Below, in pieces: positions 24,646 through 43,425 of a DNA stretch of 64,000 bases. Below the pieces are notes generated by a model. That model was not told the DNA's origin and searched no databases. It worked only from the letters and a program-made list of their open reading frames with translations. The stretch's first letter is position 1. Each line of letters starts with the position of its first letter. The translations under genes were made by a program, and so were the position numbers. Origin of the DNA: Streptomyces sp. P9-A2 (GTDB lineage: Bacteria > Actinomycetota > Actinomycetes > Streptomycetales > Streptomycetaceae); assembly GCF_036634175.1 (NCBI RefSeq), contig NZ_JAZIFX010000001.1, forward strand, positions 2,790,001 to 2,854,000, given 5' to 3'.

Positions 24646-24978
24646 GTGAAGTTCGACATGGGGTCCACGACCCTGTCGGATCTGGGCAAGAACACGGTCG
24701 GTTCGAGCACCGACCTGGGCACGCTGATCCGCATGCTCATCCAGGCGGCCGAGCCGCTGGAGGGCAAGTTCAACGGTTCCGGAAAGGTCGCCTTCGACTC
24801 GTTCAAGACGCGCGCGGACGAGATCACCGCCGCCCTGAACGACTCGCTCGGCGCGATCCTCGAAGGCCAGGGCGGTATGGACACCGCGTTCGGCACCGGT
24901 GACGTGGAGCAGCAGGACAACGCCCAGAAGAACATGGGCGCGGCGAACTTCGACGCGGCCCGCTTCGGCGCGCGCTAG
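24646..24978 (+). CDS. Small WXG100-like secretion substrate candidate
   Basis: 110 residues from GTG 24646 (GGGGGTGA 5 nt upstream; GTG 24637 also possible). Two predicted helices flank GKFNGSGKVAFD, where a WXG turn would be expected; the Trp is replaced by Phe-Asn-Gly. Sequence is uncharged in the first third and ends in a flexible tail (NMGAANFDAARFGAR). Size, position at the head of the locus and pairing with the next gene point to an EsxB-like partner. Confidence 0.7.
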   Translation: MKFDMGSTTLSDLGKNTVGSSTDLGTLIRMLIQAAEPLEGKFNGSGKVAFDSFKTRADEITAALNDSLGAILEGQGGMDTAFGTGDVEQQDNAQKNMGAANFDAARFGAR

Positions 24979-25024
24979 ACCGCCGGCCGGGGCAGGGACC
25001 GACAACCACAGGGGGTTTGTGACG

Positions 25025-25336
25025 ATGGGTCAGAATCTGGACCGCCGCTCCTACGACACCGGTGCGTCGAGCGAGGTGCAGGGTGGTCTGCAGGGCATCG
25101 TCGGCCAGTTGGAGCGCGTGCTGGCCGACCGCGACAAGGCAGTGAAGGCCGCCATGGCCGACTTCCAGGCCGACGGGGTCTCCGAGGAGTACCACGGCAA
25201 GGAACTGCGCTGGAACCGCGCGGCCGACGAGGTGCGCAGCATCATCCAACTGGTCCGCACCACCCTCGAGGACAACGACGGGACGGCCCAGGCGACGATG
25301 GCGAAGGCGCGGGCCGCGGTCGACAACATCGGCTGA
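25025..25336 (+). CDS. ESAT-6-like small protein
   Basis: 103 residues. Two long amphipathic helices (EVQGGLQGIVGQLERVLADR and ELRWNRAADEVRSIIQLVRT) around a central GVSEEYHGKE turn, the expected shape of ESAT-6/WXG100 proteins although WXG itself is missing. It lies 46 bp after the first small gene, so the two probably form a heterodimer exported by EccC. Confidence 0.78.
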   Translation: MGQNLDRRSYDTGASSEVQGGLQGIVGQLERVLADRDKAVKAAMADFQADGVSEEYHGKELRWNRAADEVRSIIQLVRTTLEDNDGTAQATMAKARAAVDNIG

Positions 25337-25382
25337 CGCCGACGCGTCGGCGTGTCGGCACGCCGGTGGGACGACGCCACAC

Positions 25383-25419
25383 GGGGATACGGGGATACGG
25401 GGATACGGGGATACGGGGA
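25383..25419. repeat. 8-bp tandem repeat (GGGGATAC)4 plus partial
   Basis: Four exact units of GGGGATAC (25383-25414) and a partial fifth lie in the gap before the DUF6507-like gene. The last GGGGA is 6 nt before its ATG and is probably the ribosome-binding site. Gain or loss of a unit would not change that spacing but could change mRNA leader structure. Confidence 0.9.
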
Positions 25420-25425
25420 ATCCAC

Positions 25426-25815
25426 ATGACGGGGTGGGACATCTCGCCGTCCGGCGTGCAGCGCGTTCTCACGCGGACGGCGGAGGCGGCCGAGGGCCTC
25501 TCGGACACCGGGAAGGCCCTGCAGGAGACACTGCCGAGCGCGGCGAAGTCCGCCGGCACGATCCAGCAGGGCGGCGTGGAGAGGAGCGGGGTCCAGGGCC
25601 CGGTCGCGGCGGCGCTGGGCGAGTTCTTCACCGCCTACCAGGAAAAGCTGATGTACGTCGCGGTGCGCACGTCGAACTCCCTCAACGGAGCGGCCACCGC
25701 GACCAACGAATACGTCAAGGGCGACCTGGACATGGCCGCGCAGGCCCAGGCGAACGCGCTGAAGGAACCGAAGATCGACCTGCCGGGGGCGGGCGGGCAG
25801 CAGGGGGGCACGTGA
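25426..25815 (+). CDS. DUF6507-like type VII-associated protein
   Basis: 129 residues, mostly helical (VQRVLTRTAEAAEGLSDTG, ALGEFFTAYQEKLMYVAVRT), with a Gly/Gln-rich end. It resembles the DUF6507 proteins found between ESAT-6-like and large toxin genes in Streptomyces. A chaperone or co-secreted partner of the toxin is a reasonable inference. Its stop overlaps the toxin GTG by 4 bp. Confidence 0.7.
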   Translation: MTGWDISPSGVQRVLTRTAEAAEGLSDTGKALQETLPSAAKSAGTIQQGGVERSGVQGPVAAALGEFFTAYQEKLMYVAVRTSNSLNGAATATNEYVKGDLDMAAQAQANALKEPKIDLPGAGGQQGGT

Positions 25816-28415
25816 GCGCGGACCTGATCGACCCGCAGAAAATCCCGCAGTTCACCGGCGACCTGGAGCAACTGGGCACGGACCACATGCTCCTGACCGG
25901 CGAGGCCCTCGTCTTCCGCCAGTCGGGATCCGACGTGCACACCCGCTTCCAGGGGCTGTCGGCGTGCTACACGGCACCGGAGGCGGAGCAGTTGTTCGCC
26001 ACGACCGCGCCGGTGGCGGCCAAGGCGGACGAGTTCGCCGACGATCTGGAGAAGGTCGCGGTGGCCCTCAGCGCGTACGAGACGGAGATCCAGCCGCTCG
26101 TGGCCAAGCTGAAGAGCCTCAAGCGGCGTGCGGAAACCTTCCGGCACCAGATCGCGGGGGACGACGACTGGCGCGAGGACGACGACAACGTCCAGCTCAA
26201 CAACGACCTGGTGTACGACGTCAACGCCACCGCGGAGGCCTTCTGGCTGGCGGAGATCGCCTGCCACAACGCGATCACCGCGCTGGTGGGCGGCTCGACG
26301 CTGATCCTCGAGGACGGCGCGGAGAAGCGCCTGGTGAAGCGCGGCACCAGCACCTACGGCTTCACCGCCGACCTGCTGAACCAGTCCGAGGAACTGCCCT
26401 GGGGCAGGACCGTGGAGAAGGAGCGGCACGGACTCGACTGGCTGGGCCACCAGGTGTGGGAGTTCGGCAAGGGATTCGTCGTCGACGGAGTGTGGGCCAC
26501 GATCCAGGGCCTCGGCACCCTCGTCGGCTTCGACGGCTTCGACGCGGCGGGCGAGGCCTGGAAAGGGCTCGGCAAGCTCGCCACCGGCGTGCTCGTCACC
26601 GCGGTGCCCGTCGTCGGCGTCGCCTACTGGGCGATGCCCGAGGACAAACTGCCCTCCTACCTGCGCGACTCCCGCAACGCGGTCAAGGAGACGGGCAAGG
26701 CGCTGGTCGCCTGGGACCAGTGGGGCGAGAACCCCGCACGCGCGAGCGGCGCGGTCACCTTCAACGTCCTGACCACGGTGTTCACCGGAGGCGCCGGAGC
26801 GGCGGCGAAGAGCGGCGCGGTGGCCCGCACGGTCGGCGCGCTCGGCAAGACGGCCCGGCTGGTCGACCCCATGACGTACCTCGGCAAGGCCGCGACGTTC
26901 GGCACGGTCAAGGTCGCCGACCTGTTCGCCGGCCTGCGGGGCGTGCACGCGGGCGCCTACACCGACATCCTCTCCGGCGCGGGGCGCGTCCAGCCCGACG
27001 GCAGCGTGGTCCGGATCGCCGACGACACGCCGGTCATCCGCGACAACGTCGTGGAGTGGCCCGACGGAACCCGGCTGAACCTGGACGACGGCTCGGTCGT
27101 CCGCGCGGACGGGACTGCGGCGCCGGCCAAGGTGGAACTCTCGGCGGCGGACCGGGAGTTGCTGGAGCGGAGCCTGCCGCACGAGGAGGGCGCGCTCGTC
27201 GGGGCGGGCGACCGGGCGGGCACGCACGCCGCCGGAACCACGGCGGCCCACGTCGGCGGCGACGCGACGGGGCGGGCCGGCGGCAACACGGCGGCGACCG
27301 CCCACGTCGGCGAGCACGCCGGGGCGCGCGGCACGGACACGGTGCCCGCACGCGACACCGGCGGGCATACGGCGGGCGGCGACCACGGGCACGCGGGCGG
27401 CGACGCGACCGACGGTGGCCGGGTTCCCGCCCAGCACGGCGGCACCGGGGGCGGCAATAGAGGCGCAGACGGCCCGGGCGGATCACCGTCCGGCAGCCGC
27501 GATCCACTGGATGTCGAACGCGAGATCATGCGCCGACAGGTCGAACGGGCCAACAACGACCCCGAGTGGTTCAAGGAGCACTACCGCAAGAACGGATACC
27601 GTTGCGACACGACCTCCGAGGGTGGATACAGCCAGGCCGTACCCCAGATCACGCTCAACCCGTTCGCGCCGCCCAAATGGATCGCGGCCAGTGACATGCC
27701 TCCGGCGATCAAGGAAAGCTATGTGCGTCCGGATCCCATCGAGGGCAAGCCGGCGGATCTCCCCGACGAGACTCGGGACTACCTGAACGAACAGGCCGCC
27801 AAGCGGGACACGGCCGTCAAAGCCGACAACGCGGCGGAGGACGCCCTCAAAGCCGCAGAGAGGGCCTACGCCGCCAACCCCACGGACGAGCTGGCCGCCG
27901 CGAGGGATCTCGCCGACAGGACACACTCACCGATCCATGGCGACGCGAACCGGCAGAGCGAACTGCTCGGCGAGCACGCCGCCGAGCGCCATGCGATACC
28001 CGAGCACTACAAGGGTGCGGTGCGTCTGGACGACGGGGCGTTCGGCAACAATCGGTTCGACCAGGTGTACCGGACGACGGACGGCCGGTACGTCGTCGTC
28101 GAGGCGAAGGGGTCGACGACGGCCTCCCTCGGAGTGCGCAAGGGGCACAGCAATCGACTGGTGACGCAGGGAACGAAGGAGTACTTTGAAACAATCCTGA
28201 AGGAAATGGAAAAGAGGGCTAAAAGAAACGAAAGAAAGGGAATGAAATCCGGAGATGGGGATCTGCTCAAATCAGCAGAGGCGGAACGCAAGCTAGCCGA
28301 CGACCTAGATAAGGCACTCAAAAAAGAACAAGTAGACTACGTCCTCGTAAAGGCTAAGCCCGACGGCGCCAAGTACGCTGGATATGAAATGCTGCAGTTC
28401 AATATAAAGAAATGA
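25812..28415 (+). CDS. Polymorphic toxin with C-terminal PD-(D/E)XK-type nuclease domain
   Basis: 867 residues. Residues 1-150 are a helical WXG-like leader (FQGLSACYTAPEAEQLF). Residues about 210-370 hold amphipathic and hydrophobic segments (GVWATIQGLGTLVGF, LVTAVPVVGVAYWAM). Residues about 460-555 are an Ala/Gly/His-rich linker. Residues about 690-867 are the effector tip: an acidic helix ending ELLGEHAAERHA, then FDQVY with Asp750, YVVVEAKG with Glu764 and Lys766, and a Lys-rich helical end. Asp-X13-Glu-X-Lys fits a restriction-endonuclease-like nuclease. The final 230 bp are visibly AT-rich with AGA/ATA/AAA codons unlike the rest, a sign that the tip was acquired. Immunity genes follow directly. 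Confidence 0.85.
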   Translation: MSADLIDPQKIPQFTGDLEQLGTDHMLLTGEALVFRQSGSDVHTRFQGLSACYTAPEAEQLFATTAPVAAKADEFADDLEKVAVALSAYETEIQPLVAKLKSLKRRAETFRHQIAGDDDWREDDDNVQLNNDLVYDVNATAEAFWLAEIACHNAITALVGGSTLILEDGAEKRLVKRGTSTYGFTADLLNQSEELPWGRTVEKERHGLDWLGHQVWEFGKGFVVDGVWATIQGLGTLVGFDGFDAAGEAWKGLGKLATGVLVTAVPVVGVAYWAMPEDKLPSYLRDSRNAVKETGKALVAWDQWGENPARASGAVTFNVLTTVFTGGAGAAAKSGAVARTVGALGKTARLVDPMTYLGKAATFGTVKVADLFAGLRGVHAGAYTDILSGAGRVQPDGSVVRIADDTPVIRDNVVEWPDGTRLNLDDGSVVRADGTAAPAKVELSAADRELLERSLPHEEGALVGAGDRAGTHAAGTTAAHVGGDATGRAGGNTAATAHVGEHAGARGTDTVPARDTGGHTAGGDHGHAGGDATDGGRVPAQHGGTGGGNRGADGPGGSPSGSRDPLDVEREIMRRQVERANNDPEWFKEHYRKNGYRCDTTSEGGYSQAVPQITLNPFAPPKWIAASDMPPAIKESYVRPDPIEGKPADLPDETRDYLNEQAAKRDTAVKADNAAEDALKAAERAYAANPTDELAAARDLADRTHSPIHGDANRQSELLGEHAAERHAIPEHYKGAVRLDDGAFGNNRFDQVYRTTDGRYVVVEAKGSTTASLGVRKGHSNRLVTQGTKEYFETILKEMEKRAKRNERKGMKSGDGDLLKSAEAERKLADDLDKALKKEQVDYVLVKAKPDGAKYAGYEMLQFNIKK

Positions 28416-28426
28416 GGCAATTGCAC

Positions 28427-29296
28427 GTGGTGACGAGTATTTCACGTCCCGAAATGGAGGGCAGCCACCCGATTCCGGACGCATTCCGCGAGAAACTGAA
28501 CACTCGCACGCTTGCGAAGATCGAAAACCTCGAGGAGTACCCGGATAGCTTCGGGTTGACCTTCAGCAGCGCACTGAGTACGGCTAAGCTGCAGACCCTC
28601 GATGATCCCACTGCCGACAAGTTGGAGACGTGGGAGGCCTGGGTGATGGCCATGCAGGTCGGGTCCGCGTTGTTCGCTTCGGCGACCGCTCCGGAGGGCT
28701 CCACCGTCGAGTGCATGATCGGCCATGAGGTGCGGACGATCCCCGCCGTGGGGATCACGCATTTCGTGGACGCCGGCACTTGGCTGGAAGCCTTCTGGCT
28801 GGCGCTCGTCTGCCGGGACCAGGCGCGGATGACGCAGCTGTGCCAGGTGCCGATCGAGACGCTGCGCGCCTCCGGCGCCGTGTTCGAGGAGTACATCTAC
28901 CACTGGGTCGACACCCTTCAGACGTACTGGCTGGAGCGGCCCGGCCTCGGGGACAAGCTCGTCGCCGCGTTCGACGGAACCGAACCGGACCGGCTGCGGT
29001 TCCTCGACCGCGAAACGATGCTCAAGGTCCTGTATCCGCCGATCAACCTGTTCTACCGCTTCATCGGACAGGACCCCGACCAGTTCAACGAGGCCCTGGT
29101 CCAGGCACTCCAACTGCACAAGGAATACTGGAACGCCGACCCCGACCGTGAGGAATCCGGCGAGGGCGACATCCCCCTCGAGATTCTCGCCCTCACCTGC
29201 CTCGCTCACGACGCCGGACGGCCCATCGAGGTCGAATCGGAGTACCTGCCCGAGCACCTGCTCAAGCGCAGCTGGCTGGGCGAATTCCCCACGTGA
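28427..29296 (+). CDS. Imm49-like immunity protein A
   Basis: 289 residues, all-helical. Conserved family words: LETWEAWVMAMQVGSALFA, TWLEAFWLALVCRDQARMTQLC, YIYHWVDTLQTYWL, LYPPINLFYRF and IEVESEYLPEHLLKRSWLGEFPT. Expected to bind and block the toxin just upstream. GTG 28427 is chosen because the third paralogue starts at the matching codon and GAGG precedes it; ATG 28412 overlapping the toxin stop lacks a ribosome site. Confidence 0.88.
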   Translation: MVTSISRPEMEGSHPIPDAFREKLNTRTLAKIENLEEYPDSFGLTFSSALSTAKLQTLDDPTADKLETWEAWVMAMQVGSALFASATAPEGSTVECMIGHEVRTIPAVGITHFVDAGTWLEAFWLALVCRDQARMTQLCQVPIETLRASGAVFEEYIYHWVDTLQTYWLERPGLGDKLVAAFDGTEPDRLRFLDRETMLKVLYPPINLFYRFIGQDPDQFNEALVQALQLHKEYWNADPDREESGEGDIPLEILALTCLAHDAGRPIEVESEYLPEHLLKRSWLGEFPT

Positions 29297-29420
29297 GACA
29301 GGTGACCGGCAGACCCCTCAGGACGGGTCTGCATAAAAGCCCGCCCTCTACCGGACGTACTACTCGTGATGTACCACTTGATGGTTCGCGCCAGTGATGC
29401 GCCAACACGCCTGCCCGTGA
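29222..29420. repeat. Long direct repeat, copy 1
   Basis: About 199 bp covering the last 25 codons of immunity gene A, the intergenic gap and the first 17 codons of the next gene. It is matched without net length change at 31232-31430 (offset 2010 bp), with moderate divergence. It is the footprint of a duplication of the two-gene unit. Confidence 0.8.
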
Positions 29421-30268
29421 TTCTCGCCGAAGTGTTCCATGTCGCATTGGAACAGACGGATGTGTCGGCAGAATCGGAGTGGGAGGACCGGAACTGGGAT
29501 GCTGTCGTCACGTGCGAATACGAGCGCCTGCAAGGCGACTTGAACTGGTCCCTGACCGTCTACGCAGCCAATGAGGTCGATTATCGACCGGCAGAGAAGG
29601 AGCTGGCCTCGTCGGTGGCCCAGCGCCTCTCCGCGTCGATTTTCACTTCTTGGGATGCCAGATTCCCGTGGGTCCGAAGGGCGGCCCTGCCGGACGGCAG
29701 TTTCACACTGGCACGGGTGCTGCAACCGGAGGACGACAGCCCCGCTTATGTGGTCGACGCCGCAGAATCGAGAATCCCGGATCTTCCGAATGTTCCCGTA
29801 GTAAAATTTCCGGAAGCAGTGCGCGCATACAAACTCCCCACCCCGATCACCGACTCGGTCGAAGAAGCGAAGCCCGGGAGGGAAACGTCCGATCTTGTCA
29901 GCCTCCTGGGAAATTGGGAGCTTCTGTGCTCACGGCTTCGTTCCGGCTGTCCCCCGCACGGATGGTTTCCGGCGGACCTGTATCACGAGGACCTGGAACA
30001 CCGAGACCGTCTCGGAGAAGCAGTGGACAGGCTCTCCCCGGAGATCATGGCGTGCACGGCCAGAGACGCCTTGGAGCAACTCGATGAGATGTACCGACGT
30101 TTCACCATTGATGACGGTGGGCTGGCACTTGCCTCAGCACTGGACGAGGGAATCACGGACTTGCCGCGCCTGTCGTGGTACTGGCGTCGTCGCCCTCTCG
30201 TCCTGCCTTGGTCCGAGAACGTCGGGCATCAGGCAGATCCGACCGATAACGAGACTCGCGCCCCATGA
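29369..30268 (+). CDS. Unrecognised companion protein of the immunity array
   Basis: 299 residues from ATG 29369. I do not recognise a family. It starts MYHLMVRASDAPTR, is acidic (SEWEDRNWDAVVTCEYERL), has no signal peptide or membrane segment, and ends with a charged helix. A degraded copy of its start lies after immunity gene B, so it belonged to the duplicated unit. Codon use is less GC-biased than the secretion core. Its place among immunity genes suggests a second immunity factor, possibly against a lost toxin tip. Confidence 0.7.
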   Translation: MYHLMVRASDAPTRLPVILAEVFHVALEQTDVSAESEWEDRNWDAVVTCEYERLQGDLNWSLTVYAANEVDYRPAEKELASSVAQRLSASIFTSWDARFPWVRRAALPDGSFTLARVLQPEDDSPAYVVDAAESRIPDLPNVPVVKFPEAVRAYKLPTPITDSVEEAKPGRETSDLVSLLGNWELLCSRLRSGCPPHGWFPADLYHEDLEHRDRLGEAVDRLSPEIMACTARDALEQLDEMYRRFTIDDGGLALASALDEGITDLPRLSWYWRRRPLVLPWSENVGHQADPTDNETRAP

Positions 30269-30442
30269 CAGTCATCAAGGCTCAGCCTCCTCCGGATTCG
30301 GGGAGCGACTGGCTCACCCGTCCGCTGGACCGCCGTGCGACCGGCGCAAGTGCGCAGGATCTACACACGAACGATGAGCTCGAAACCTTCATGCGTACCT
30401 ATCTTCATGCAGATACGGCTTACGACACCGCCGGACCCTTCC

Positions 30443-31306
30443 ATGACCATAGAAATCACCCGGCACAGCCTACCGGCAGGAAGTGATGCCGAGCAGTTCG
30501 CTGAGCAGTTGGCCTCCGATCTGACTGACGAGATCAATGACCTCGAGGACTCATCGGAGTTGATCGACTTCGCATTCAGCTCCGGAGTAATGAACCTGCG
30601 CGCCCATTGCGTGAGTGATCCTCAGGCCGAAGCAGTGGAGACCTGGGAAGCGACGGTCAACGCGATGCAGCTGGGTTCTGCCCTGTTCGCCGTCACGGCC
30701 AAGAGTGAGGGAACAGTCGAATGCCGCATCAACGGGAAAGTGCGCACCCTTCAGGCGACCGGCCCGCTCTCGACGGCCCGCGCGGGAACCTGGCTGAACG
30801 CGTTCTGGCTCGCCGTCATCTGCCGTGAGCCCGAGCGTATGACGCAATTGTGCGAGGTACCCCTGGAGCGGCTCCGGGCGCCGGAGGGGCAGTACGACGA
30901 GTACATCTACCACTGGGTCGACACCCTGCAGACGTACTGGCTGCGCCGGACGGGGCTGGTCGAGAAGCTGACCGCCGCACTGCAGATGTCGGATCCGGCG
31001 GTCGCCCGCATCGCTCCCCGAGACCTGCTGCAGGGCATCCTCTATCCGCCGATCAACCTCTTCTACCACTTCGTACGCAGGGACGCGGAAGGCTTCAACC
31101 CCGCACTGGAAGAAGCCCTGAAACTGCACCGCGCCTACTGGACCCTCACCGAGGAACGGCAGACGGACATCGACGGCGCCATCGCTCTTGGCCCCCTTGC
31201 CATCGCCTGCTGGGCGTACGACGGGCACCTGCCCATCGAGGTCGAGTCGGACTACCTGCCCCAACACCTCCTCCAGCACGACTGGCTGGGCGAATTCCCC
31301 ACGTGA
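30443..31306 (+). CDS. Imm49-like immunity protein B
   Basis: 287 residues, paralogue of protein A through its whole length: ETWEATVNAMQLGSALFA, GTWLNAFWLAVICREPERMTQLC, YIYHWVDTLQTYWL, LYPPINLFYHF and IEVESDYLPQHLLQHDWLGEFPT. The N-terminus is unrelated and the start is uncertain (ATG 30443 taken; ATG 30374 possible). Divergence from A suggests a shifted specificity. Confidence 0.87.
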   Translation: MTIEITRHSLPAGSDAEQFAEQLASDLTDEINDLEDSSELIDFAFSSGVMNLRAHCVSDPQAEAVETWEATVNAMQLGSALFAVTAKSEGTVECRINGKVRTLQATGPLSTARAGTWLNAFWLAVICREPERMTQLCEVPLERLRAPEGQYDEYIYHWVDTLQTYWLRRTGLVEKLTAALQMSDPAVARIAPRDLLQGILYPPINLFYHFVRRDAEGFNPALEEALKLHRAYWTLTEERQTDIDGAIALGPLAIACWAYDGHLPIEVESDYLPQHLLQHDWLGEFPT

Positions 31307-31430
31307 AACAGGTGACCGGAATGGCTGATCAGGACAGGTCTGTAAGGAGCCAGCCCTCTACTTGACGTATTACTCGGATGTACCACTTGATGGTTCGCAC
31401 CAGTGGTGCGCCAACGTGTCCAGCCGTATC
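31232..31430. repeat. Long direct repeat, copy 2
   Basis: Second copy of 29222-29420: end of immunity gene B, gap, and the start of a companion-protein remnant. After 31430 the similarity stops, giving the breakpoint where immunity gene C was joined. Confidence 0.8.
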
Positions 31431-31437
31431 GGTTAGG
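31378..31437 (+). pseudogene. 5' remnant of the companion gene
   Basis: ATG 31378 begins MYHLMVRTSGAPTCPAV, matching the start of the intact gene at 29369 (MYHLMVRASDAPTRLPV). The frame then runs into unrelated sequence and immunity gene C. Only about 17 codons survive. Confidence 0.8.
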
Positions 31438-31448
31438 GGAGGGGTTCA

Positions 31449-32327
31449 GTGGTCACGAGTGTTCCGCGCCATGACTTCCGCACGGACAACGCGGCCGAGG
31501 CCATGGCGCCGCTCGTCGATGGGACACGCCGAGTTCTCGACCGACTGGAAAGGTCGGAGATGTCCCGCCATCGGGCGCTGAGCAGCACCCTGACCATGGC
31601 GAAGTGGCGCTGCCTGACGGATCCCGAAGCAGCCAGACTTGAGACGTGGGAGGCCTGGGTCACCGCCATGCAGGTCGGCTGCGCCCTGTTCGACTCTGCC
31701 ACAGCCACCGAGGGGCCCGTACCGTGCCGCATCGGAAGCGCGGGCGAGGTGAAGAACCTGCCTGCGACGGGGCCGACGCCTTACACGCATGCGGGGGCGT
31801 GGCTCACATCGGTCTATCTGGCGACGATCTGCCGCGAGAACGATCGCCTCGATCGACTGATGCAGGTACCTGTTTCGTTCCTCCGTGCCTCTGTTCCCGA
31901 GGGCGCGGTTTTCGACGACCATGTCTACGACTGGGTCGAGGCTCTTCAGAGCTACTGGGCCGGTCGGGCAACGGAGATGTGGGACAAGCTGGTATCAGCG
32001 GTCAAAGGCACCGATCCCGAGCGGGAGGGCATCACTGACAAGGAAATGATGCTGAAGATCCTTTATCCGCCGCTCGAACTCTTCCATCGCTTCCAGCTGC
32101 GGGAAATTGATCAGTTCAACACTGCGCTGGTTGACGCCGTCACCGGGCACAAGCAGTACTGGGCCGGCGACGCGGCGCGCGCCCTGAGCGGTGACGGCCT
32201 GGTGACCCTCGCTCCCCTCGCGTTGGCCTGCATGGCTTACGACAACGAATTCCCGGTCGAGGTCGAGTCCGAGTACTTGCCCAAGCACCTGCTGAGGCGT
32301 TCATGGGTCGGCGAGTTCGAGACGTGA
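31449..32327 (+). CDS. Imm49-like immunity protein C
   Basis: 292 residues. Same framework as A and B (LETWEAWVTAMQVGCALF, GAWLTSVYLATICRENDRLDRL, YDWVEALQSYWAG, LYPPLELFHRF, VEVESEYLPKHLLRRSWVGEFET) but the most diverged. GTG 31449 with GGGGAGGGG upstream is a strong start. It is followed by a broken copy of the small membrane-protein gene, so it was once next to the secretion core. Confidence 0.87.
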   Translation: MVTSVPRHDFRTDNAAEAMAPLVDGTRRVLDRLERSEMSRHRALSSTLTMAKWRCLTDPEAARLETWEAWVTAMQVGCALFDSATATEGPVPCRIGSAGEVKNLPATGPTPYTHAGAWLTSVYLATICRENDRLDRLMQVPVSFLRASVPEGAVFDDHVYDWVEALQSYWAGRATEMWDKLVSAVKGTDPEREGITDKEMMLKILYPPLELFHRFQLREIDQFNTALVDAVTGHKQYWAGDAARALSGDGLVTLAPLALACMAYDNEFPVEVESEYLPKHLLRRSWVGEFET

Positions 32328-32361
32328 TCCGCGTTCCCCGCGAGGCAGGCGGCCGCAGATC

Positions 32362-32455
32362 GTGACAGCTCAGGATGACGACAGCCAGCTCCTCGATTCC
32401 GTAGCCATGCGTCGACGGCGGTTGCGGACACGTTGCTCTTCGGTGTGCAGCGGGA
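32362..32455 (+). pseudogene. Broken copy of the small secretion-locus membrane protein
   Basis: GTG 32362 begins MTAQDDDSQLLDSVAMRRRR, close to the intact protein at 34917 (MPAQDYDSQLLESVSVRRRR). A 1-nt deletion after GCGGTTGCGG shifts the frame, and the membrane segment is missing. It forms, with the end of immunity gene C, a direct repeat of 34820-35010. Confidence 0.8.
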
Positions 32456-35183: not shown

Positions 35184-35199
35184 TAGGTTCGCGAGTGTG

Positions 35200-36585
35200 A
35201 TGTCTCCGGGGGCCTTGAGCAGGGAAACGGCCGGTGGGCCGGCGGTGTTGAGCCGGGTCACGCTCATCGGTGAGCGGCGCCGCGTCGACCTCGTGCTTCC
35301 GGCGCGGGAGCCGGTCGGGCTGCTGCTGCCCGAGATCATGCGGTTGCTGGACGACCGCGTGGAGGGGCGGCCCGCTTCACGTCACCTCGTCACGGTGGAC
35401 GGCTCCGCGCTCGATCACGACAGCACCCTGGAGACGGCGGGCATCCGCGACGGTGCCGTCCTGCGTCTCGTCCGTGCGGAGGACGCCCCGCCCGCCCCCG
35501 TCGTGCACGACGTCACCGACGAGGTGGCGGAGGATCTCGGTCATCGGGCGTGGGTGTGGGGGCCGGCCGCGCGGCGGGTCACGGCGGGGGTCGCGAGCGT
35601 GGGTTGGGTGGTCGTCGCCGCGCTGTTCGCGCGTGCGCGGTACGACAGCTCGGTCGTCGCCGCCGCCCTGCTCGCCGCCGCCGGTGCGGCCGCGGTCGCG
35701 GGCGCGGTCCTGGGACGGGTGCGCAGGCACGGGCTCGCCGCCACCCTCCTGTGTTCCGGTGGCGCGCTCGGTGTGCTGGGCGTGTGGAGCCTTGTCGATG
35801 TCGTCGGCGGGTCGTCGGCGGGCGCTCTGCGGCTCGCCGGGGTGGCTGCTGTGAGTGTGCTGGTCCTCGCCCTGCTCGGGCTGTTCACGCCGCTGGGGCG
35901 GGGCGGGCTCGTGGGTGCCGGCGCCGTGGCCCTGACCGCCGTCGGCTGGGAGGCCGTCGTCGCCGTGCAGTCCGGCGCCGGGACGGCGGAGCAGCAGGCC
36001 CGTGTCGGGGCCGTTCTCGGCGTGGTCTCGGTGGTGGTGCTCGGCGTGCTGCCGCGGCTCGCGCTGATGGCGTCCGGGCTCTCGGGGCTCGACGACCGCC
36101 GGGCCGGGGGGATCTCCGTCAGCCGCCACCAGGTGTCCGTCGCCCTGGCCGCCGCCCACCGCGGGTTGGTGCTCGCCACGATCACCCTGGCGGGGTCGGC
36201 CGCCGTGGCCGCCGTACTGGCGCTGCGGGATCCCTCCGTGTGGACGGTGCCGCTCGCCGCGGTCGTCGCGGTGGTGCTGGCGCTGCGGGCCCGGGCGTTT
36301 CCGCTGGTGGCCGAGGTGGTCGTGCTGCTGGCCGCCGCGGCGGGCGTCGGCGTGCGGTTGCTGGCGGTGTGGGCGGAGCGGTCCTCGGCCGCGGCACCGC
36401 TGGCCGTCCTCGTGGTGCTGGCGGTCCTGCCGCTCGTCGTGCTCGCCGTGCAGCCGGCCGAGCACGTACGGGTCCGGCTGCGGCGGGCCGGTGACCTGCT
36501 CGAGTCGGTGGGGGTCATCGCGCTGCTTCCGCTGCTCGTCGGCGTGTTCGGTGTGTACGGGCGACTGCTCGGCACCTTCGCTTGA
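35200..36585 (+). CDS. eccD: EccD-like type VII secretion membrane channel protein
   Basis: 461 residues. Residues about 15-95 form a ubiquitin-like (YukD-type) domain: SRVTLIGERRRVDLVLPARE, LVTVDGSALDHDSTLETAGI, GAVLRLV. After an acidic linker come about 11 hydrophobic helices to the C-terminus. EccD forms the membrane vestibule with EccC. It lies 16 bp after the small membrane gene and 21 bp before the MinD-like gene. Confidence 0.9.
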   Translation: MSPGALSRETAGGPAVLSRVTLIGERRRVDLVLPAREPVGLLLPEIMRLLDDRVEGRPASRHLVTVDGSALDHDSTLETAGIRDGAVLRLVRAEDAPPAPVVHDVTDEVAEDLGHRAWVWGPAARRVTAGVASVGWVVVAALFARARYDSSVVAAALLAAAGAAAVAGAVLGRVRRHGLAATLLCSGGALGVLGVWSLVDVVGGSSAGALRLAGVAAVSVLVLALLGLFTPLGRGGLVGAGAVALTAVGWEAVVAVQSGAGTAEQQARVGAVLGVVSVVVLGVLPRLALMASGLSGLDDRRAGGISVSRHQVSVALAAAHRGLVLATITLAGSAAVAAVLALRDPSVWTVPLAAVVAVVLALRARAFPLVAEVVVLLAAAAGVGVRLLAVWAERSSAAAPLAVLVVLAVLPLVVLAVQPAEHVRVRLRRAGDLLESVGVIALLPLLVGVFGVYGRLLGTFA

Positions 36586-36606
36586 GGGCTTGAGGGGCGC
36601 GGCGGC

Positions 36607-37890
36607 ATGACGAGCGGGGAGCAGGGACGGGAGCAGCCGTCGGCACACGCCGGTGGCGGTGGCGGTGGCGGCGACTGGCAGCGGGACGTGCTGCGGGAGC
36701 TGGGCGGCGGGGTAAGCGGCCGTTCGGACGCGGGGACGCACATCGGTGCGGAAGCGGGGGCGGGCACGGAAGGTGGGGCGCCCGGCCCGCACGTCCCCGG
36801 TCCGGTGTCCCCGACCGCCTCCGCCTTCCCGACCGCGCCCGACGCTCCGGACAGCCCGGCGTCCCCCTCCCCCGTACCGGCCGGCCGGGCCGCCGACGAG
36901 CCGGCCCCGCACCGGCCCGCGGCGCCCGCCGCCCCCGTCCCCACCCGTGCCCCTCACCTCCCGGCGGCCCCCGCCCCCGAGTCCTCCCCCACCCTCGATC
37001 CCCGTCTCCTCCTCGCCCTGGGACGCCCCCTGCACGGCGACTCCGTGACCCGGCGTACGGGGCGGGCGCTGCGCAAGCTCACCTCGTCCGTGGCACAGGA
37101 CGTCGCCGAACAGACGCGGATCGCCCGGGAGTTGCAGCAGCCCGTCACCACGGGCCGGGTGGTGGCCGTCACCTCCATCCGTGGCGGTGTCGGCAAGTCC
37201 ACCGTCTCGGCGTTGCTCGGGCGCACCCTCAACCACTACCGGCACGACCCGGTGCTGACACTGGAGGCGGATGCCGCGCTGGGCACCCTGCCGGTGCGCA
37301 TGGGTGCGGAGGCGGTGCGCTGGACGTGCGCCGATCTCGCGCCGATCCTTCATCCGTCCATGCAACTGACGGACGTGACGGGCTACTTGGTGCCGGTGTC
37401 GGATGGTGGCTGGCTGCTGCCGGCGAGCCGGGGCCAGGTAGGTGCGCCGCTCGCCATGACGGCGTACCGCAAGGTGACGCTGGCGCTGCGCCGCTACTTC
37501 GCCGTGACCGTGGTCGACTGCGAGACGCTCCCCGGCGAGGTGGCGCGCACCGCCATGGACACCGCGCACGCCCGGGTGGTGGTCTCGCCGGCCACCGCGG
37601 AGGGGGTGAACGCCACCCGTCAGGTGCTGGACTGGCTGGCCCGGTTGCCGCACTCCGCCCTGGCCACGACGGTCGTGGCGCTGGTGTCGAGCACCCCCGA
37701 CACGCTCCTCGACGACGAGACGGCCGCCGGGCACCTCAAGGAGGCCGGTGTCACCGTCGTCTCCGTGCCGTACGACCGTCATCTGGCCGGTGGCGGCCCC
37801 ATCCGCACCGACCTCCTGGCGCACGACACGCGGCAGGCCGTCCTGCGGCTGACCGCCGAGGTGATGGGGCGCGCGGTGAGGGTGCGATGA
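36607..37890 (+). CDS. MinD/ParA-like ATPase of the secretion locus
   Basis: 427 residues. The first 165 are Gly/Ala/Pro-rich and disordered. Then an SRP/MinD-type P-loop: VVAVTSIRGGVGKSTVSALL (deviant Walker A with Lys), LTLEADAALGTLPVRMG, FAVTVVDCETL and a PYDRHLAGGGPI end. EspI-like ATPases with this layout occur in ESX loci and may regulate secretion. Soluble. Confidence 0.85.
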   Translation: MTSGEQGREQPSAHAGGGGGGGDWQRDVLRELGGGVSGRSDAGTHIGAEAGAGTEGGAPGPHVPGPVSPTASAFPTAPDAPDSPASPSPVPAGRAADEPAPHRPAAPAAPVPTRAPHLPAAPAPESSPTLDPRLLLALGRPLHGDSVTRRTGRALRKLTSSVAQDVAEQTRIARELQQPVTTGRVVAVTSIRGGVGKSTVSALLGRTLNHYRHDPVLTLEADAALGTLPVRMGAEAVRWTCADLAPILHPSMQLTDVTGYLVPVSDGGWLLPASRGQVGAPLAMTAYRKVTLALRRYFAVTVVDCETLPGEVARTAMDTAHARVVVSPATAEGVNATRQVLDWLARLPHSALATTVVALVSSTPDTLLDDETAAGHLKEAGVTVVSVPYDRHLAGGGPIRTDLLAHDTRQAVLRLTAEVMGRAVRVR

Positions 37891-38006
37891 GCATCCGGCC
37901 GGTGCGCCCCGGTCCGTACCCGTCCTGCCCGCTTTCCGCCGCGCCCTCCCTCACCCCCTCCCGCCCGCCTTCCGTCACGACCCGCTTCGGAGAAGTCCGC
38001 CCGTGA
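37887..38006 (+). CDS. Possible 39-residue coupling peptide
   Basis: ATG 37887 overlaps the MinD-like stop (ATGA) and its TGA (38004-38006) overlaps the eccC GTG (38003). MSIRPVRPGPYPSCPLSAAP is Pro/Ser/Arg-rich with no known family. It may only serve to pass ribosomes to eccC. Confidence 0.4.
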   Translation: MSIRPVRPGPYPSCPLSAAPSLTPSRPPSVTTRFGEVRP

Positions 38007-41000
38007 CCCTGCAGATCGTCCATCGACCCGCCCGCAGCACCCGTCCCCCGGAACCCGCCCGGCCCCGCACGATCGAACCCCCGCCGAACCTTCCCGAAGG
38101 GAAGATCGGCAACGCGGCCACCGCGCTGCTGCCGATGGCCGGCGTCATGGGCTCCGTGATCATGATGACCGTGATCCGCAACAGCCGGTTCGCGGTGGTG
38201 GGCGCGGTCGTGCTGGTCTTCGCGCTGCTGGGCGCGGTGGCGCTGTTCCTGTCGCAGCGGGGCAAGGCGCAGCGCACCCGGCGCACCCAGCGTGAGCGCT
38301 ACCTGGAGTACCTGGAGGAACTGCGGGAGGAACTCGGCGTCGCGGAGCGCCGCCTGCGGGATGCGGAGCGGGAGCTGAACCCGCCGCCGGAGGCGCTGTA
38401 CGACCTGGTGCGGGACCCCGCCCGGCTGTGGGAGCGGCGCCGCCGGGACGCCGACTTCCTGCGGGTACGGGTCGGTCTCGGTGACGTACCGGCCCAGGAG
38501 CCGGTGATCCAGCAGAGCGGCACCGGCGGGGTGCTGACGCCGCCGGATCCGTTCATGCTCAACGAGGCGCGCGCCCTGCAACGCCGGTTCGCGACGGCCG
38601 CCGACGTGCCCCTGACGGTGCCGTTGGACCGGGCGGGAAATGTCAGCGTCGTCGGCGACCGGGAGGACGTCCTGCGGGTCGTCCGGGCCCTGCTGGTGCA
38701 GACGGCGGTGACGCACGCCCCCGACGACGTCGCGCTCGCCCTGGCCGTGCCCGGCGAGCGGCTCGCCGCGTGGGAGTGGGCCAAGTGGCTGCCCCACGTG
38801 CTGGATCCGCAGGCGCACGACGGTCCGGTGGCCGCCCGCCGCATCGCGCCCGATGTCCGGCAGCTCGCCGAAGGGCTCCGGCACGAGCTGGGCCGGCGGT
38901 CCGCGTACGCGGCGGAGGTGCGGCGCGGGCTGGCCGACCGGAGCGCGCTGCGGCTGGCGGGCCGGCTGCTGGTGGTCGTCGACGCCCACGGTGAGCCGGC
39001 CGCCGAACTCCCCCGCCCGGACTCGGCGGTCGGGCTGGCGGACATGGGGGTCACCGTGGTGCACCTCCTCCAGGAGCAGGTGCACGAGCCGGACGAGGTG
39101 AGCGTGCGCATCACCGTCCGGGGCGAGCGGGTGGTCGTCGAGGACGTGCGTGCTTCCTCCGCCGCGGAGGACCTGCGCGGTTCCTCCGCCGCGGAGGGCG
39201 CCGTCGACCCGGTCACCGCGGCCGGGGCGGAGGGCGTCGCCCGGTTGCTGGCCCCGCTGCGGCTGTCGCCGGAGTCCGTCGCCGAGGGGAGCCCCGTCAC
39301 CGGACCGGTCGACTTCCCCGCGCTCCTCGGCATCGCCGACCCCGCCGACCTCGATCTGCCCACCCTGTGGAAGCCCCGCGGCGAACGCGACTTCCTCCGC
39401 GTACCCATCGGCCTCACGGACCGTCACGAGCCGGTTCTGCTGGACCTGAAGGAGTCCTCCCAGCTCGGCATGGGCCCGCACGGACTGTGCGTGGGCGCGA
39501 CCGGTTCGGGCAAGAGCGAGCTGCTGCGCACCCTCGTCCTCGCCCTGGCCGCCACCCACTCCCCGGAAGACCTGGCACTCGTCCTGGTCGACTACAAGGG
39601 CGGCGCCACGTTCGCCCCCTTCGCCGACCTCCCGCACACCGCCGGAATGATCACCAACCTGGAGAACCGGGCCGGGCTCGTCGAACGCGTCCACACCAGC
39701 CTCGCCGGTGAGGTCAAGCGCCGCCAGCAGGTCCTGAAGGACGCCGGCAACGTCGCCGACATCGGGCACTACGCCGTGCTGCGCGCGACGGAGCGGCCGG
39801 ACCTCGAACCGCTCCCGCACCTGTTCGTCGTCATCGACGAGTTCGGCGAACTCCTCACCGCCAAGCCTGACTTCATCGACCTGTTCCTGTCCATCGGCCG
39901 CATCGGCCGCTCCATCGGCGTCCACCTGCTGCTGTCCAGCCAGCGCATCGAGGGCGGCAGGCTCAAGGGCCTGGACACCTACCTGTCGTACCGGCTGGGG
40001 CTGCGCACCTTCTCCGCCGACGAATCCCGCACGGTCCTCGACACCACCGACGCCTTCCACCTGCCGCCCCTGCCCGGCTTCGGCTACCTGAAGGTCGACA
40101 CCTCCACCTACGAACGGTTCAAGGCCGGGTACGTCTCCGGCGCGCACCGCGGACCGGCGGCGCGCGAGCAGCGGGACGAGGAGCCGCTCGCCCTGCCCTA
40201 TCCGGCGTACAACACCGCGGGGCGCACGCAGGAGCCGGAGGAGGGACCCTCCGCCACCCGGCGGGAGACCGGCCCGACCGTCCTGTCCCTCATGGTCGGC
40301 GGGCTCGCCGGAGCCGCGCCCGCCGTGCGCCGTATCTGGCTGCCCCCGCTGCCGGACGCCGTCACCCTGGACGCGGCCGCGGGACCGGTCCGGGTCTCCG
40401 AGCACGGGCTGCACCTGGCGCGCGCCGCGGGCGGGATGCGGGTGCCGCTCGGTGTGCTCGACGACCCGGCCCGGCAGTGGCAGGGCCGGTGGGAGCTGGA
40501 CCTGACCACGGCCGGCGGTCACGTGGCCGTGATCGGCGGCCCCCAGTCCGGCAAGACCACGCTGCTGCGGACCCTCGTGCTGTCCCTGGCGGTCACCCAC
40601 ACACCCCGCGACGTCGCCGTGTACGGCCTGGACCTGGTCGGCGGCGGCCTCTCGGCCCTGGCCGCCCTGCCGCACGTCGGCGGGATCGCCGGACGGGCCG
40701 ACCGTGAGCGCGCGGCCCGTACGGTGGCCGAGGTGCGCGCCATGCTCGACGAGCGCGAGACGGTCTTCCGCGAGCACGGCATCGACTCCGTCGACCAGCT
40801 CCGCCGGCTCCGCGCCCAGGGCCGGCTGCCGCGGCTCGGCTCCACCGACGTCGTCCTCGTGGTCGACGGTTTCGGCGCGCTGCGCGACGACTTCGCCGAC
40901 CTCGACGAGCCGGTCGCCGACCTGCTGAAGCGGGGCGGCGGCTACGGCATCCACGTCGTGGCGGGCATGCTGCGCTGGAACGACGTCCGTATCGCCACCC

Positions 41001-42019
41001 AGTCGCTCTTCGGCACCCGCGTCGAACTGCGCCTGAACGACCCCGCCGACTCCTCCGTCGACCGCAAGCTCTCCGGGACCCTCTCGCCGGACGTGCCCGG
41101 CCGGGTGCTCACCGACGGCAAGCTGTTCGCGCAGGCCGCCCTGCCCCGCATCGACGGTTCGCCCACCACCGGCGACCTGGGCCCGGCCCTGGACGAGGCG
41201 GCCCGGACCGTCCGCGCCACCTGGCACGGCGAACCCGCCGCCCCGGTGCGAGTGCTGCCGGCCCGGCTGCCGGCGACCCGGCTGCCCCCACCGGCCGCCG
41301 AACCACGCCGGATACCCCTCGGCCTCGACCAGGACGCCCTCGCCCCCGTGCTGCTCGACCTCTTCGGCGGCGACCAGCACCTGCTGGTCCTCGGCGACAA
41401 CGAGTGCGGCAAGACGAACCTGCTGAAGCTGGTCGTCGCCGGGCTCGTCGAGCGGTACTCCGACGACGAGCTGGTCTTCGGCGTCTTCGACCCCCGCCGC
41501 GGCCTGCGCGGCGTCGTCCCGGAGCCGTACCGGGGCGGCTACGCCCACAACACCACGCTCGCCGGCACCCTCTCCACGGGCATCGCCGCCGAACTGCGGA
41601 AGCGGCTGCCGGAGACCGCCGATCCGGACGCACCCGAGACCGGCGAACCCGCTTTCCGGGGCCCGCGGATCGTCATCCTCGTCGACGACTACGACATCCT
41701 CACCACCGCCGGACAGCAGCCCCTCGCGCCCTTCCTGCCGTACGTCTCCTCCGCGCAGGACATCGGCCTGCACTTCGTCCTGGCGCGCCGCGTCGCGGGA
41801 GCCTCGCGCGCGCTGTACGAGCCGCTGCTGACCACCCTGCGGGAGACGGGCACCACCGCCCTGGTGATGACCGGCGACCGCACCGAGGGACAGCTCTTCC
41901 CCGGTCTGTACGCCTCCCAGCAGCCGCCCGGCCGCGGCACCCTGGTCCGCCGCGGCCGGCGCCACCAGCTCGTCCAGACCGCGCTGGCCGGAGCCGAGGA
42001 GAAGGGGGAGGAGTCGTGA
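38003..42019 (+). CDS. eccC: EccC-type FtsK/SpoIIIE secretion ATPase
   Basis: 1338 residues, EccCa and EccCb fused. An N-terminal pair of membrane helices (residues about 40-85) is followed by three FtsK-like ATPase domains with Walker A motifs GATGSGKSE (about 498), GGPQSGKTT (about 845) and GDNECGKTN (about 1130), and acidic Walker B strands LFVVIDEFGELL, VVLVVDGFGAL and IVILVDDYDIL. The first is canonical; the others lack the usual catalytic Glu, as in other EccC. It is the motor that recognises ESX substrates. Confidence 0.96.
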   Translation: MTLQIVHRPARSTRPPEPARPRTIEPPPNLPEGKIGNAATALLPMAGVMGSVIMMTVIRNSRFAVVGAVVLVFALLGAVALFLSQRGKAQRTRRTQRERYLEYLEELREELGVAERRLRDAERELNPPPEALYDLVRDPARLWERRRRDADFLRVRVGLGDVPAQEPVIQQSGTGGVLTPPDPFMLNEARALQRRFATAADVPLTVPLDRAGNVSVVGDREDVLRVVRALLVQTAVTHAPDDVALALAVPGERLAAWEWAKWLPHVLDPQAHDGPVAARRIAPDVRQLAEGLRHELGRRSAYAAEVRRGLADRSALRLAGRLLVVVDAHGEPAAELPRPDSAVGLADMGVTVVHLLQEQVHEPDEVSVRITVRGERVVVEDVRASSAAEDLRGSSAAEGAVDPVTAAGAEGVARLLAPLRLSPESVAEGSPVTGPVDFPALLGIADPADLDLPTLWKPRGERDFLRVPIGLTDRHEPVLLDLKESSQLGMGPHGLCVGATGSGKSELLRTLVLALAATHSPEDLALVLVDYKGGATFAPFADLPHTAGMITNLENRAGLVERVHTSLAGEVKRRQQVLKDAGNVADIGHYAVLRATERPDLEPLPHLFVVIDEFGELLTAKPDFIDLFLSIGRIGRSIGVHLLLSSQRIEGGRLKGLDTYLSYRLGLRTFSADESRTVLDTTDAFHLPPLPGFGYLKVDTSTYERFKAGYVSGAHRGPAAREQRDEEPLALPYPAYNTAGRTQEPEEGPSATRRETGPTVLSLMVGGLAGAAPAVRRIWLPPLPDAVTLDAAAGPVRVSEHGLHLARAAGGMRVPLGVLDDPARQWQGRWELDLTTAGGHVAVIGGPQSGKTTLLRTLVLSLAVTHTPRDVAVYGLDLVGGGLSALAALPHVGGIAGRADRERAARTVAEVRAMLDERETVFREHGIDSVDQLRRLRAQGRLPRLGSTDVVLVVDGFGALRDDFADLDEPVADLLKRGGGYGIHVVAGMLRWNDVRIATQSLFGTRVELRLNDPADSSVDRKLSGTLSPDVPGRVLTDGKLFAQAALPRIDGSPTTGDLGPALDEAARTVRATWHGEPAAPVRVLPARLPATRLPPPAAEPRRIPLGLDQDALAPVLLDLFGGDQHLLVLGDNECGKTNLLKLVVAGLVERYSDDELVFGVFDPRRGLRGVVPEPYRGGYAHNTTLAGTLSTGIAAELRKRLPETADPDAPETGEPAFRGPRIVILVDDYDILTTAGQQPLAPFLPYVSSAQDIGLHFVLARRVAGASRALYEPLLTTLRETGTTALVMTGDRTEGQLFPGLYASQQPPGRGTLVRRGRRHQLVQTALAGAEEKGEES

Positions 42020-43425
42020 CCAAGGACGTCATCGCCCTCACCCCGACGATGCCGGACACCTGGGCCCTGCTGGCCGGCCTGTACGCGGCCGGGCCCGAGG
42101 CGGGCGTGACCGCCGGGTCCGGGGGCGCCGTGCTGCGTCTGTGCGCCCCGGACGGCAGGCCCCTCGTGTCGGTGGAGGCCCCGCTGCTGGTCCAGGTTCC
42201 CGGGGAGGCCGAACGGCTGCTCGGGCGGGACGTGCCCGTGCCGTTCTGGTGGACCGAGGCCCGGGCCTCCGGCGCCGTGCCCGGGGCCGAGCGGCTGGCG
42301 GGATCGGTGTGCGGGCGGCTCGCCCTGCTGCTGGGCGGCAGCACCTGGCCCGAGCCGGCGGCGGGCACCGAGGTCGTGGACGTGCGCGCGGCCGTCGCGC
42401 CGGACGACGGGCAGCCGGTCGTGGACGTCCTCACCGACAGCACGTCCGTCGTCCTGGCCGACCGGCCCGTCCTGGCCCTGACCACCTGGCTGTCCGAGGT
42501 GCTGCGCGGCACCTCCGAGTCGGGCCGGGCCCTGCAGATCGTCACCCCGCCGCACGTCCGGCTCAGTGCCCCGGCCCGCGCCACCCTCCTCCAGGTGCCC
42601 AACCGCTGGGTCGTCCAGGACCCGGCACAGGGCTACTACGACGGGCTGTCCGGGGCGGTGCTGCGCTGGCAGGACGGGACGTTCGCGCCCGCGCTCGGGG
42701 CGGACGGCACAGCCTCGGTCGCCGAGGCGTTCGGCCGGACGTCCCCCTCGAGTGACCGGCAGCTCGTCGTGGCGTTCCGCACGACGCTCCCCGCGCACGA
42801 GGACGCCGCTCTGGGCGAAGCGCTCGAGACGGCCTGGCGCGCGCTCACCGGCTCGGCCCCGGCCGGCTGGGGCACCGCGGAACCCGTCAACCTGCCCTGG
42901 TCGCCGCGCCGGCTGACCGATCTGGCCCGCGACCGGGCCCCCGAGCCCACCCATCTGCTCGTGACGGGGCACCCCGGCCGGCCCGCGCTGGCGTGGATCC
43001 GGGTGACGCGGACGACCGCCGGGGTCGAGCAGGACGTGACACTCACCCTCGGGTACGGGGAGGGCGAGGAACCGCCCCTGGAGGCGATCGGGCCCCTCGC
43101 CGAGACCCTCGTCGTGGAGCACGGCCTGACGACGATGCTGGCCTCGGTGCGGCGGGCCTCCCGCGGCCTCACGACGGCGCCCGTGCTCCAGGCACCGACC
43201 GTCCCGGTCGCCTTCACCCTGGGTGCGCGCGACGTGCGGGGCATCGGGCTCACCCACGCCCGTCGCCCGCCCGTCGGGGTACGACCCGTCGTCCTGGGGC
43301 CCGCCTCCGAGCCGGCCCTGCACTATCCGCTGGGGGACGGGTCGGACGCCGGCGCCCTCGTCGAGCTGCACCGCCTGGCGGCGCATCTGCGGGCCGGTGT
43401 GCCGGGGGCGGAGGCGGAGGTCTGA
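42016..43425 (+). CDS. DUF6177-like type VII-associated protein
   Basis: 469 residues, soluble, alpha/beta. It begins TKDVIALTPTMPDTWALLAG, and contains VVDVLTDSTSVVLADRPVLALTTWLSEV in pieces, RWVVQDPAQGYYDGLSG and RPPVGVRPVVLGP. It resembles proteins named DUF6177 next to Streptomyces eccC. No enzyme motif seen. GTG overlaps the eccC stop. Last gene of the locus. Confidence 0.75.
   Translation: MTKDVIALTPTMPDTWALLAGLYAAGPEAGVTAGSGGAVLRLCAPDGRPLVSVEAPLLVQVPGEAERLLGRDVPVPFWWTEARASGAVPGAERLAGSVCGRLALLLGGSTWPEPAAGTEVVDVRAAVAPDDGQPVVDVLTDSTSVVLADRPVLALTTWLSEVLRGTSESGRALQIVTPPHVRLSAPARATLLQVPNRWVVQDPAQGYYDGLSGAVLRWQDGTFAPALGADGTASVAEAFGRTSPSSDRQLVVAFRTTLPAHEDAALGEALETAWRALTGSAPAGWGTAEPVNLPWSPRRLTDLARDRAPEPTHLLVTGHPGRPALAWIRVTRTTAGVEQDVTLTLGYGEGEEPPLEAIGPLAETLVVEHGLTTMLASVRRASRGLTTAPVLQAPTVPVAFTLGARDVRGIGLTHARRPPVGVRPVVLGPASEPALHYPLGDGSDAGALVELHRLAAHLRAGVPGAEAEV

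Follow-up and report, generated by a model that had tools for sequence, protein, structure and literature searches.

The stretch of DNA analyzed here (hereafter the window; 64,000 nucleotides, positions 2790001 to 2854000 of the 8.39 Mb genome of Streptomyces sp. P9-A2) carries a module that resembles a type VII secretion system (T7SS) within window positions 24637 to 43425. All genes of the module lie on the plus strand and form one run between flanks of sugar-related genes; the left flank encodes a PfkB kinase and RbsD, and the right flank a xylose-isomerase-like protein and a Gfo/Idh/MocA protein. They encode, in order, three small proteins, a polymorphic toxin, an array of Imm49 immunity proteins, a DUF5753/DUF397 pair, a short EccB-like membrane anchor, EccD, a MinD-like ATPase, EccC, and a DUF6177 protein. 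Because this gene set and its order recur in many genomes, the module is not a chance assembly. A preliminary description of the window had named EccC, EccD, the MinD-like ATPase, the DUF6177 protein, a toxin, and ESAT-6-like and immunity genes between two sugar operons, and EccD, the MinD-like ATPase, EccC, the DUF6177 protein, and three Imm49 genes were confirmed where they had been reported, with both flanks being of the kind proposed. The same description held that full-length EccB, EccE, and MycP are missing from the locus. Among the open reading frames (ORFs) of the locus that were scanned with profiles, indeed none was identified as EccE or MycP and none reached the cut-off for EccB. 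All matches of the genome to EccB, EccE, and mycosins fall outside the window.

The short EccB-like anchor is encoded at 34908 to 35183 (+; 91 residues, or 88 if translation begins at the ATG at 34917) and has a conserved core. It consists of a cytoplasmic helix, one membrane helix, and a short tail, with a single hydrophobic stretch at residues 42 to 68. By using hhalign, we aligned the protein in register with the N-terminus of EccB over 51 columns (E value of 1.2e-4, probability of 55), and the Pfam EccB profile matched through its positions 16 to 63 with a score of 11.4 bits, which is below the cut-off. An alignment of ten anchors from three families revealed invariant charged residues ahead of the membrane helix and the motif A-V-x-C-A-G inside it.

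A scan of species genomes recovered 309 relatives of the anchor; the counts given for related loci refer to the best 80 that were kept. These include representatives from Streptomyces, Dermacoccus, Kocuria, Zhihengliuella, Cryobacterium, Nocardiopsis, Streptomonospora, and Marinactinospora, such that the anchor is spread over the Streptomycetaceae, the Nocardiopsidaceae, and several Micrococcales. The length from core to stop is 82 to 165 residues in 74 of the 80 loci and 318 to 371 residues in the other six, all of which belong to the Nocardiopsidaceae. The very small EccB-like protein of 88 residues that had been proposed from the window is therefore a real and conserved gene. EccD begins less than 1000 bases from the start of the anchor in 76 of the 80 loci and less than 1500 bases from it in 77, and the three loci without a nearby EccD are L123 and L126, both of which end soon past the anchor, and L147. 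Where at least 9 kb of downstream sequence was available (67 loci), EccD and the MinD-like ATPase were each found in 66, and the counts for EccC and DUF6177 were 60 and 52, respectively. The seven loci in which EccC is not in place are six from the Nocardiopsidaceae and L147. None of the 80 loci, many of which are cut by contig ends, was matched in tblastn searches with this genome's canonical EccB, EccE, and MycP.

Of the six long anchors of the Nocardiopsidaceae (L101, 2047-3150; L113, 10007-10951; L122, 10007-10981; L172, 10007-10951; also L127 and L145), all four that were scanned carry a TNT domain (PF14021, 59.9-79.9 bits) past the membrane helix.

Downstream of the anchor, the EccD gene (35197 to 36585, +) encodes a protein that matches PF19053 (67.8 bits) and TIGR03920 (126 bits), both above cut-off, and carries an N-terminal ubiquitin-like YukD domain (PF08817, 62.3 bits), where the two Pfam matches were obtained with the ORF at 35146-36585. 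The EccC motor ATPase (38003 to 42019, +) has three Walker A motifs and scores 783 bits with TIGR03924 (cut-off of 509) and 758 bits with TIGR03925 (cut-off of 347). No FHA domain was found among the 25 best of 29 Pfam rows for this protein. Two or three Walker A motifs are present in 78 of 78 rows for module EccC proteins, some of which represent the same gene twice.

To place the motor among its relatives, we used a quick IQ-TREE analysis of 39 EccC rows, including EccC-like outgroups, of which 22 come from the module and 14 are canonical. The module rows formed one group and the canonical rows another, each with a value of 100 in the Shimodaira-Hasegawa-like approximate likelihood ratio test. 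The canonical rows comprise two Streptomyces groups and the plasmid loci of Nocardia and Mycolicibacterium. Note that long branches were flagged and that canonical sampling was limited; on this tree, the module EccC proteins are one clade that is sister to the sampled canonical EccC proteins.

This separate clade speaks against recent decay of an ordinary ESX locus. By such an account, eccB would have been truncated, eccE and mycP lost, and secretion abolished. The immunity array has truly decayed locally, as seen from an incomplete, broken copy of the anchor gene and the remains of an Imm49 gene. However, the short anchor, the gene order, and an intact motor recur across families together with their own EccC clade, which makes decay of the whole system very improbable.

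The gene between those for EccD and EccC (36607 to 37890, +) encodes a MinD/ParA-like ATPase of the kind found in ESX loci, whose N-terminus appears proline rich by eye. It aligns with a MinD/ParA protein encoded between espG and eccD on a Nocardia ESX plasmid (hhalign E value of 1e-21, 30% identity), and we take it to be of the EspI type. The Walker A lysine of this ATPase is lost in two genomes from outside the genus, G331 and G211 (L084, 7145-8020, and L034, 8349-9269), as in a pseudo-ATPase, and the gene itself is in place. Elsewhere in the Streptomyces sp. P9-A2 genome lies a further EccC/FtsK-like ATPase of 1582 residues (G000:C1:4690181-4692205; L090, 4382-9130, minus strand), which scores 362.8 bits, below the EccC cut-off, and weakly matches an FHA-type profile (Yop-YscD_cpl, 20.4 bits, also under the cut-off). 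Full-length matches of this type (approximately 334-376 bits) occur in 12 of the 23 same-genus genomes searched, including some without EccB.

The genome-wide search for eccB, eccE, and mycP that the preliminary description had called for was positive. A complete ESX locus is located at approximately 5.965-5.990 Mb, comprising EccB (264.9 bits), EccE, MycP, EccC, and EccD, as well as two WXG100-type genes, one of which scores above the cut-off. A second EccE candidate at 0.59 Mb was dropped as a member of the SCO6880 family (431.7 bits). Because a complete ESX locus is present, it was necessary to examine by genome comparison whether the module borrows EccB, EccE, and MycP from that locus and supplies only the motor, EccD, and substrates of its own.

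For this purpose, we surveyed 150 Streptomyces genomes. DUF6177 was detected in 50 of them and the short anchor in 52, which are the same 50 among the matches listed plus G423, whose copy has two internal stops, and G496. This co-occurrence yields a Fisher p value of 7e-38. One further candidate carrier, G087, was rejected on the basis of a DUF6177 match under the cut-off (20.4 bits) and a locus (L037) without module genes. Full-length EccB was found in 138 of the 150 genomes, and thus accompanies the module in most carriers (47 of 50), as borrowing would predict. However, it is equally common where the module is lacking (91 of 100; Fisher p value of 0.75). Moreover, three Streptomyces carriers have no EccB, namely G405 and G434, each assembled as one contig, and G146 (130 contigs). 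These three have no EccE either, and each has exactly one EccC over the cut-off, which is that of the module. None of the nine Streptomyces genomes that lack both EccB and the module has an EccC over the cut-off. Two genomes of other families, G211 and G331 (drafts of 60 and 20 contigs), likewise have one EccC and neither EccB nor EccE; the DUF6177 gene of G331 is located approximately 22 kb from EccC. EccE was not detected genome-wide in five of ten carriers tested. We also looked for the module on plasmids; 375 PLSDB records gave an EccC match, all with less than 60% identity.

The complete ESX locus therefore makes borrowing possible in this genome, whereas the carriers without EccB and EccE, both within Streptomyces and in two genomes of other families, indicate that it is not the general rule. 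In addition, the module itself encodes an anchor that would occupy the same docking site on the machine, and we consider dependence on the second locus unlikely. Two readings had been offered at the outset, namely that the system takes the missing parts from another locus or that it is reduced and relies on a very small anchor resembling EccB. We favor the latter because the anchor is conserved and because carriers exist in whose genomes neither EccB nor EccE was detected, and borrowing as a rule did not find support. Judged from these relatives, the system can apparently run without the EccB-MycP chamber and without EccE, as their gene content suggests.

The module begins with two ESX-type genes and a third small gene. 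The protein encoded at 24637 to 24978 (+; 113 residues) belongs to no Pfam or NCBIfam family, and the one encoded at 25025 to 25336 (+) matches the NCBIfam family ESAT6_3 (NF035935, 160.4 bits, cut-off of 100). The W-x-G motif occurs in neither protein; the first has FNG at residue 45 and the second FQA at residue 47. FNG is kept in 43 of 56 homologues of protein 1, and the variants at the FQA position include FAA (19 of 58), FTA (14), and FQA (8). The homologue of protein 1 in L034, with 54% identity, gives 17.6 bits with the WXG100 profile, which is under the cut-off. The third small partner protein (25426 to 25815, +; 129 residues) matches no family with a meaningful score. Related loci likewise encode a third small protein after ESX protein 2 and ahead of the toxin, and the gene at this position in L034 scores 40 bits with DUF6507, where homology to the protein in the window is not established.

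The polymorphic toxin gene follows at 25812 to 28415 (+) and encodes 867 residues that give no Pfam or NCBIfam match. We compared 33 related toxins chosen from the retrieved loci, 32 of which are untruncated, including that of the window. The N-terminal part is held in common, and the C-terminal 150 residues of the untruncated proteins fall into 14 clusters. The cluster to which the C-terminus of the window toxin belongs has six members, and Imm49 is present in the locus of all six. This C-terminus contains a D...ExK motif, read by eye, that is nuclease-like, and Imm49 has been listed with toxins of the restriction-endonuclease fold (Zhang et al. 2012, PMC3482391). A structure model of the N-terminus (residues 18-160 approximately; predicted local distance difference test (pLDDT) score of 78.8) is helical and resembles EsxA and PPE-type chains, with BAR domains scoring equally.

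An immunity array at 28412-34892 separates the toxin from the anchor, in which expanded Imm49 genes with repeats, a remnant, and a broken copy of the anchor gene surround a regulator pair. The array includes three Imm49 genes (all PF15575) at 28412 to 29296 (+; 253.5 bits), 30335 to 31306 (+; 251.1 bits, start uncertain), and 31449 to 32327 (+; 199.8 bits), and an ORF of 300 residues without a Pfam or NCBIfam family at 29366 to 30268 (+). An Imm49 3'-end remnant is found at 34821 to 34892 (+; repeat family D2, 88% to 29225-29296). The broken copy of the anchor gene (32368 to 32456, +), which corresponds to its 5' end in degenerate form, was recognized by local alignment to 34923-35012, with a score of 88 compared with a maximum of 39 in 200 shuffles, and was probably left by a duplication inside the array. 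The regulator pair consists of a DUF5753/helix-turn-helix protein (33572 to 34420, +; PF19054, 170 bits on the ORF at 33242-34420, with the start picked by eye) and the adjoining DUF397 protein (34390 to 34608, +; PF04149, 74.2 bits).

The last gene of the module (42016 to 43425, +) encodes the DUF6177 protein (PF19674, 397 bits on the ORF at 41404-43425), a proposed substrate adaptor or chaperone whose reading frame overlaps that of EccC by four bases. Its structure model (pLDDT of 88.9) shows in the C-terminal half a weak likeness to BPSL2088 and to immunity-type folds. A comparison with one EspG protein gave an hhalign E value of 0.65 and no sequence similarity, and the matches listed in the fold comparison were other folds. 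Genome G239 contains five DUF6177 matches (L025, L028, L035, and L036), several of which adjoin genes for a toxin, Imm49, or a small partner; the 8-20 kb retrieved around these copies contain no EccC, and two of the copies are near contig ends. Because these copies occur without EccC nearby, they favor a role for DUF6177 on the side of the substrate, which we regard as suggestive. We found no paper on DUF6177 in the open-access literature.

Several known systems share features with the module. Like T7SSa and ESX-4-like systems, it has an EccC with EccCa and EccCb halves, an EccD with a ubiquitin-like domain, and small ESX-type proteins, and it further resembles T7SSa in having an EccB-like membrane anchor and, as in ESX plasmids, a MinD/ParA gene in the locus. 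Unlike T7SSa, it has no EccB periplasmic domain, EccE, or MycP at the locus, its EccC falls in the separate sister clade, and it includes DUF6177 and a polymorphic toxin with an Imm49 array. EccE is reported to be missing in some ESX-4 systems. ESX-4 has been described as EccC, EccD, EccB, MycP, and WXG proteins (Newton-Foot et al. 2016, PMC4791881). Types T7SSc to T7SSj have been named, and in that account T7SSd is the sole further actinobacterial type (Garrett et al. 2024, PMC11217815). The module is like T7SSd in being actinobacterial, in having few core genes, and in including a small protein with a single membrane helix (TsdH in T7SSd). However, T7SSd is reported there to have an FHA-bearing ATPase, the kinase TsdD, the giant protein TsdI, and no ubiquitin-like part, whereas the EccD of the module carries a ubiquitin-like domain and its EccC scores as the T7SSa type. 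With the T7SSb of Bacillota and their LXG toxins, the module shares a polymorphic toxin with a helical N-terminus, small partners, and strings of immunity genes. It differs in its membrane parts, which are EccD and the EccB-like anchor, and in its EccC, which scores 556 bits against the EssC cut-off of 778.

The closest published case we recognize is the ESX system of Streptomyces scabies 87.22, which is very probably a member of this lineage because its small proteins have the FNG and FQA motifs and because a S. scabiei DUF6177 protein is 62% identical. This assignment rests on the motifs and DUF6177. In S. scabies, FNG and FQA replace WXG in EsxA and EsxB, just as in the small proteins 1 and 2 of the window, and a subtilisin-type protease is located away from the ESX cluster (PMC8401907). 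Section 3.4 of that paper, which describes the system, makes no mention of a short EccB anchor, of toxin and immunity genes, or of a lineage across families. In the open-access literature searched, we found no description of the short anchor, of the cross-family lineage as a subtype, of carriers without EccB and EccE, or of the toxin arrays. Thus, the earlier suggestion that a machine of this form could be new stands in part: the anchor and the lineage as a subtype have no account in that literature, but a very probable member is already in print.

Taken together, we propose that the module is an old, largely self-sufficient variant of T7SSa that lacks a chamber and serves polymorphic toxins, and we assign this reading a probability of roughly 0.68. 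The sequences themselves show the gene content, its conservation and co-occurrence, the EccC clade, the modularity of the toxin, and several carriers in which EccB and EccE were not detected. We infer secretion itself, the toxin as its substrate, roles for DUF6177 and the MinD-like ATPase, and the geometry of the pore. In ESX-3, the N-terminal tail, linker helix, and membrane helix of EccB touch EccC and EccD, and the EccB periplasmic domain has been suggested to be essential for oligomerization (PMC6986878). In ESX-5, the EccB periplasmic domains and MycP form a chamber that is proposed to be the exit conduit, and the EccB membrane helices confine the pore (PMC8131196). The segment that docks and confines the pore is kept in the module, and the chamber parts and EccE are missing together, from which a translocon without a chamber is proposed. 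EccC would be the motor and EccD the membrane raft, and the short anchor would be the only EccB segment, docking on EccC and EccD and confining the pore. Neither the extracytoplasmic chamber of EccB and MycP nor EccE is encoded at the locus. The small ESX-type proteins and DUF6177 would probably pass the toxin to EccC. The predicted substrate is the polymorphic toxin, with its common N-terminus and a C-terminus that is swapped between strains, which here would be nuclease-like and matched by the Imm49 array.

Several points weigh against this proposal. Secretion by ESX-5 needs each of EccB, EccC, EccD, EccE, and MycP (PMC10597459, Table 1), and it would be unexpected for a machine to work with three of these missing. 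The homology between the anchor and EccB is modest, given the hhalign probability and the Pfam score noted above, and divergent proteins may replace the missing parts. Fyans et al. (2013) reportedly deleted eccC, eccD, esxA, and esxB in S. scabies without loss of virulence, and the esxA and esxB mutants, but not those of eccC and eccD, are said to have shown developmental phenotypes, which would suggest that the small proteins act inside the cell. Finally, a mycosin over the cut-off is encoded outside the module in all eight Streptomyces genomes tested, including the three carriers without EccB. In the genome studied here, one lies in the ESX locus and another at 1.355 Mb, the latter being a mycosin-like subtilase (G000:C1:1354818-1355849; L091) outside both T7SS loci. 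These proteases raise the alternative that the core lacks a chamber and is completed by a separate mycosin-like protease or an unrecognized envelope protein encoded elsewhere, and the distant subtilisin-type protease has been proposed for the S. scabies ESX in this way (PMC8401907, section 3.4). However, neither carrier from outside the genus has a subtilase that reaches the mycosin cut-off of 278.75 bits, the best scores being 121 bits in G211 and 254 bits in G331. We therefore judge completion by such a protein to be a minority prospect.

We tentatively offer a broader interpretation, which we rate just short of even odds. The lineage would be a distinct T7SS subtype, and the minimal translocon of the ESX kind would consist of EccC, EccD, and a bare EccB docking and membrane helix, with the EccB-MycP chamber and EccE as separable additions that do not belong to the channel. 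This would leave the anchor's outer end available for other uses, such that the TNT domain in the Nocardiopsidaceae might act as a translocon-tethered effector or plug.

On the sequence evidence, the locus is a probable toxin-export machine that keeps the T7SS motor and membrane channel. If the chamber and EccE are truly dispensable, the module would provide a natural system with which to ask what the core channel needs, in the setting of an easily grown soil Streptomyces. The S. scabies ESX, thus far an oddity in print, would find its place within a broad lineage that carries polymorphic toxins.

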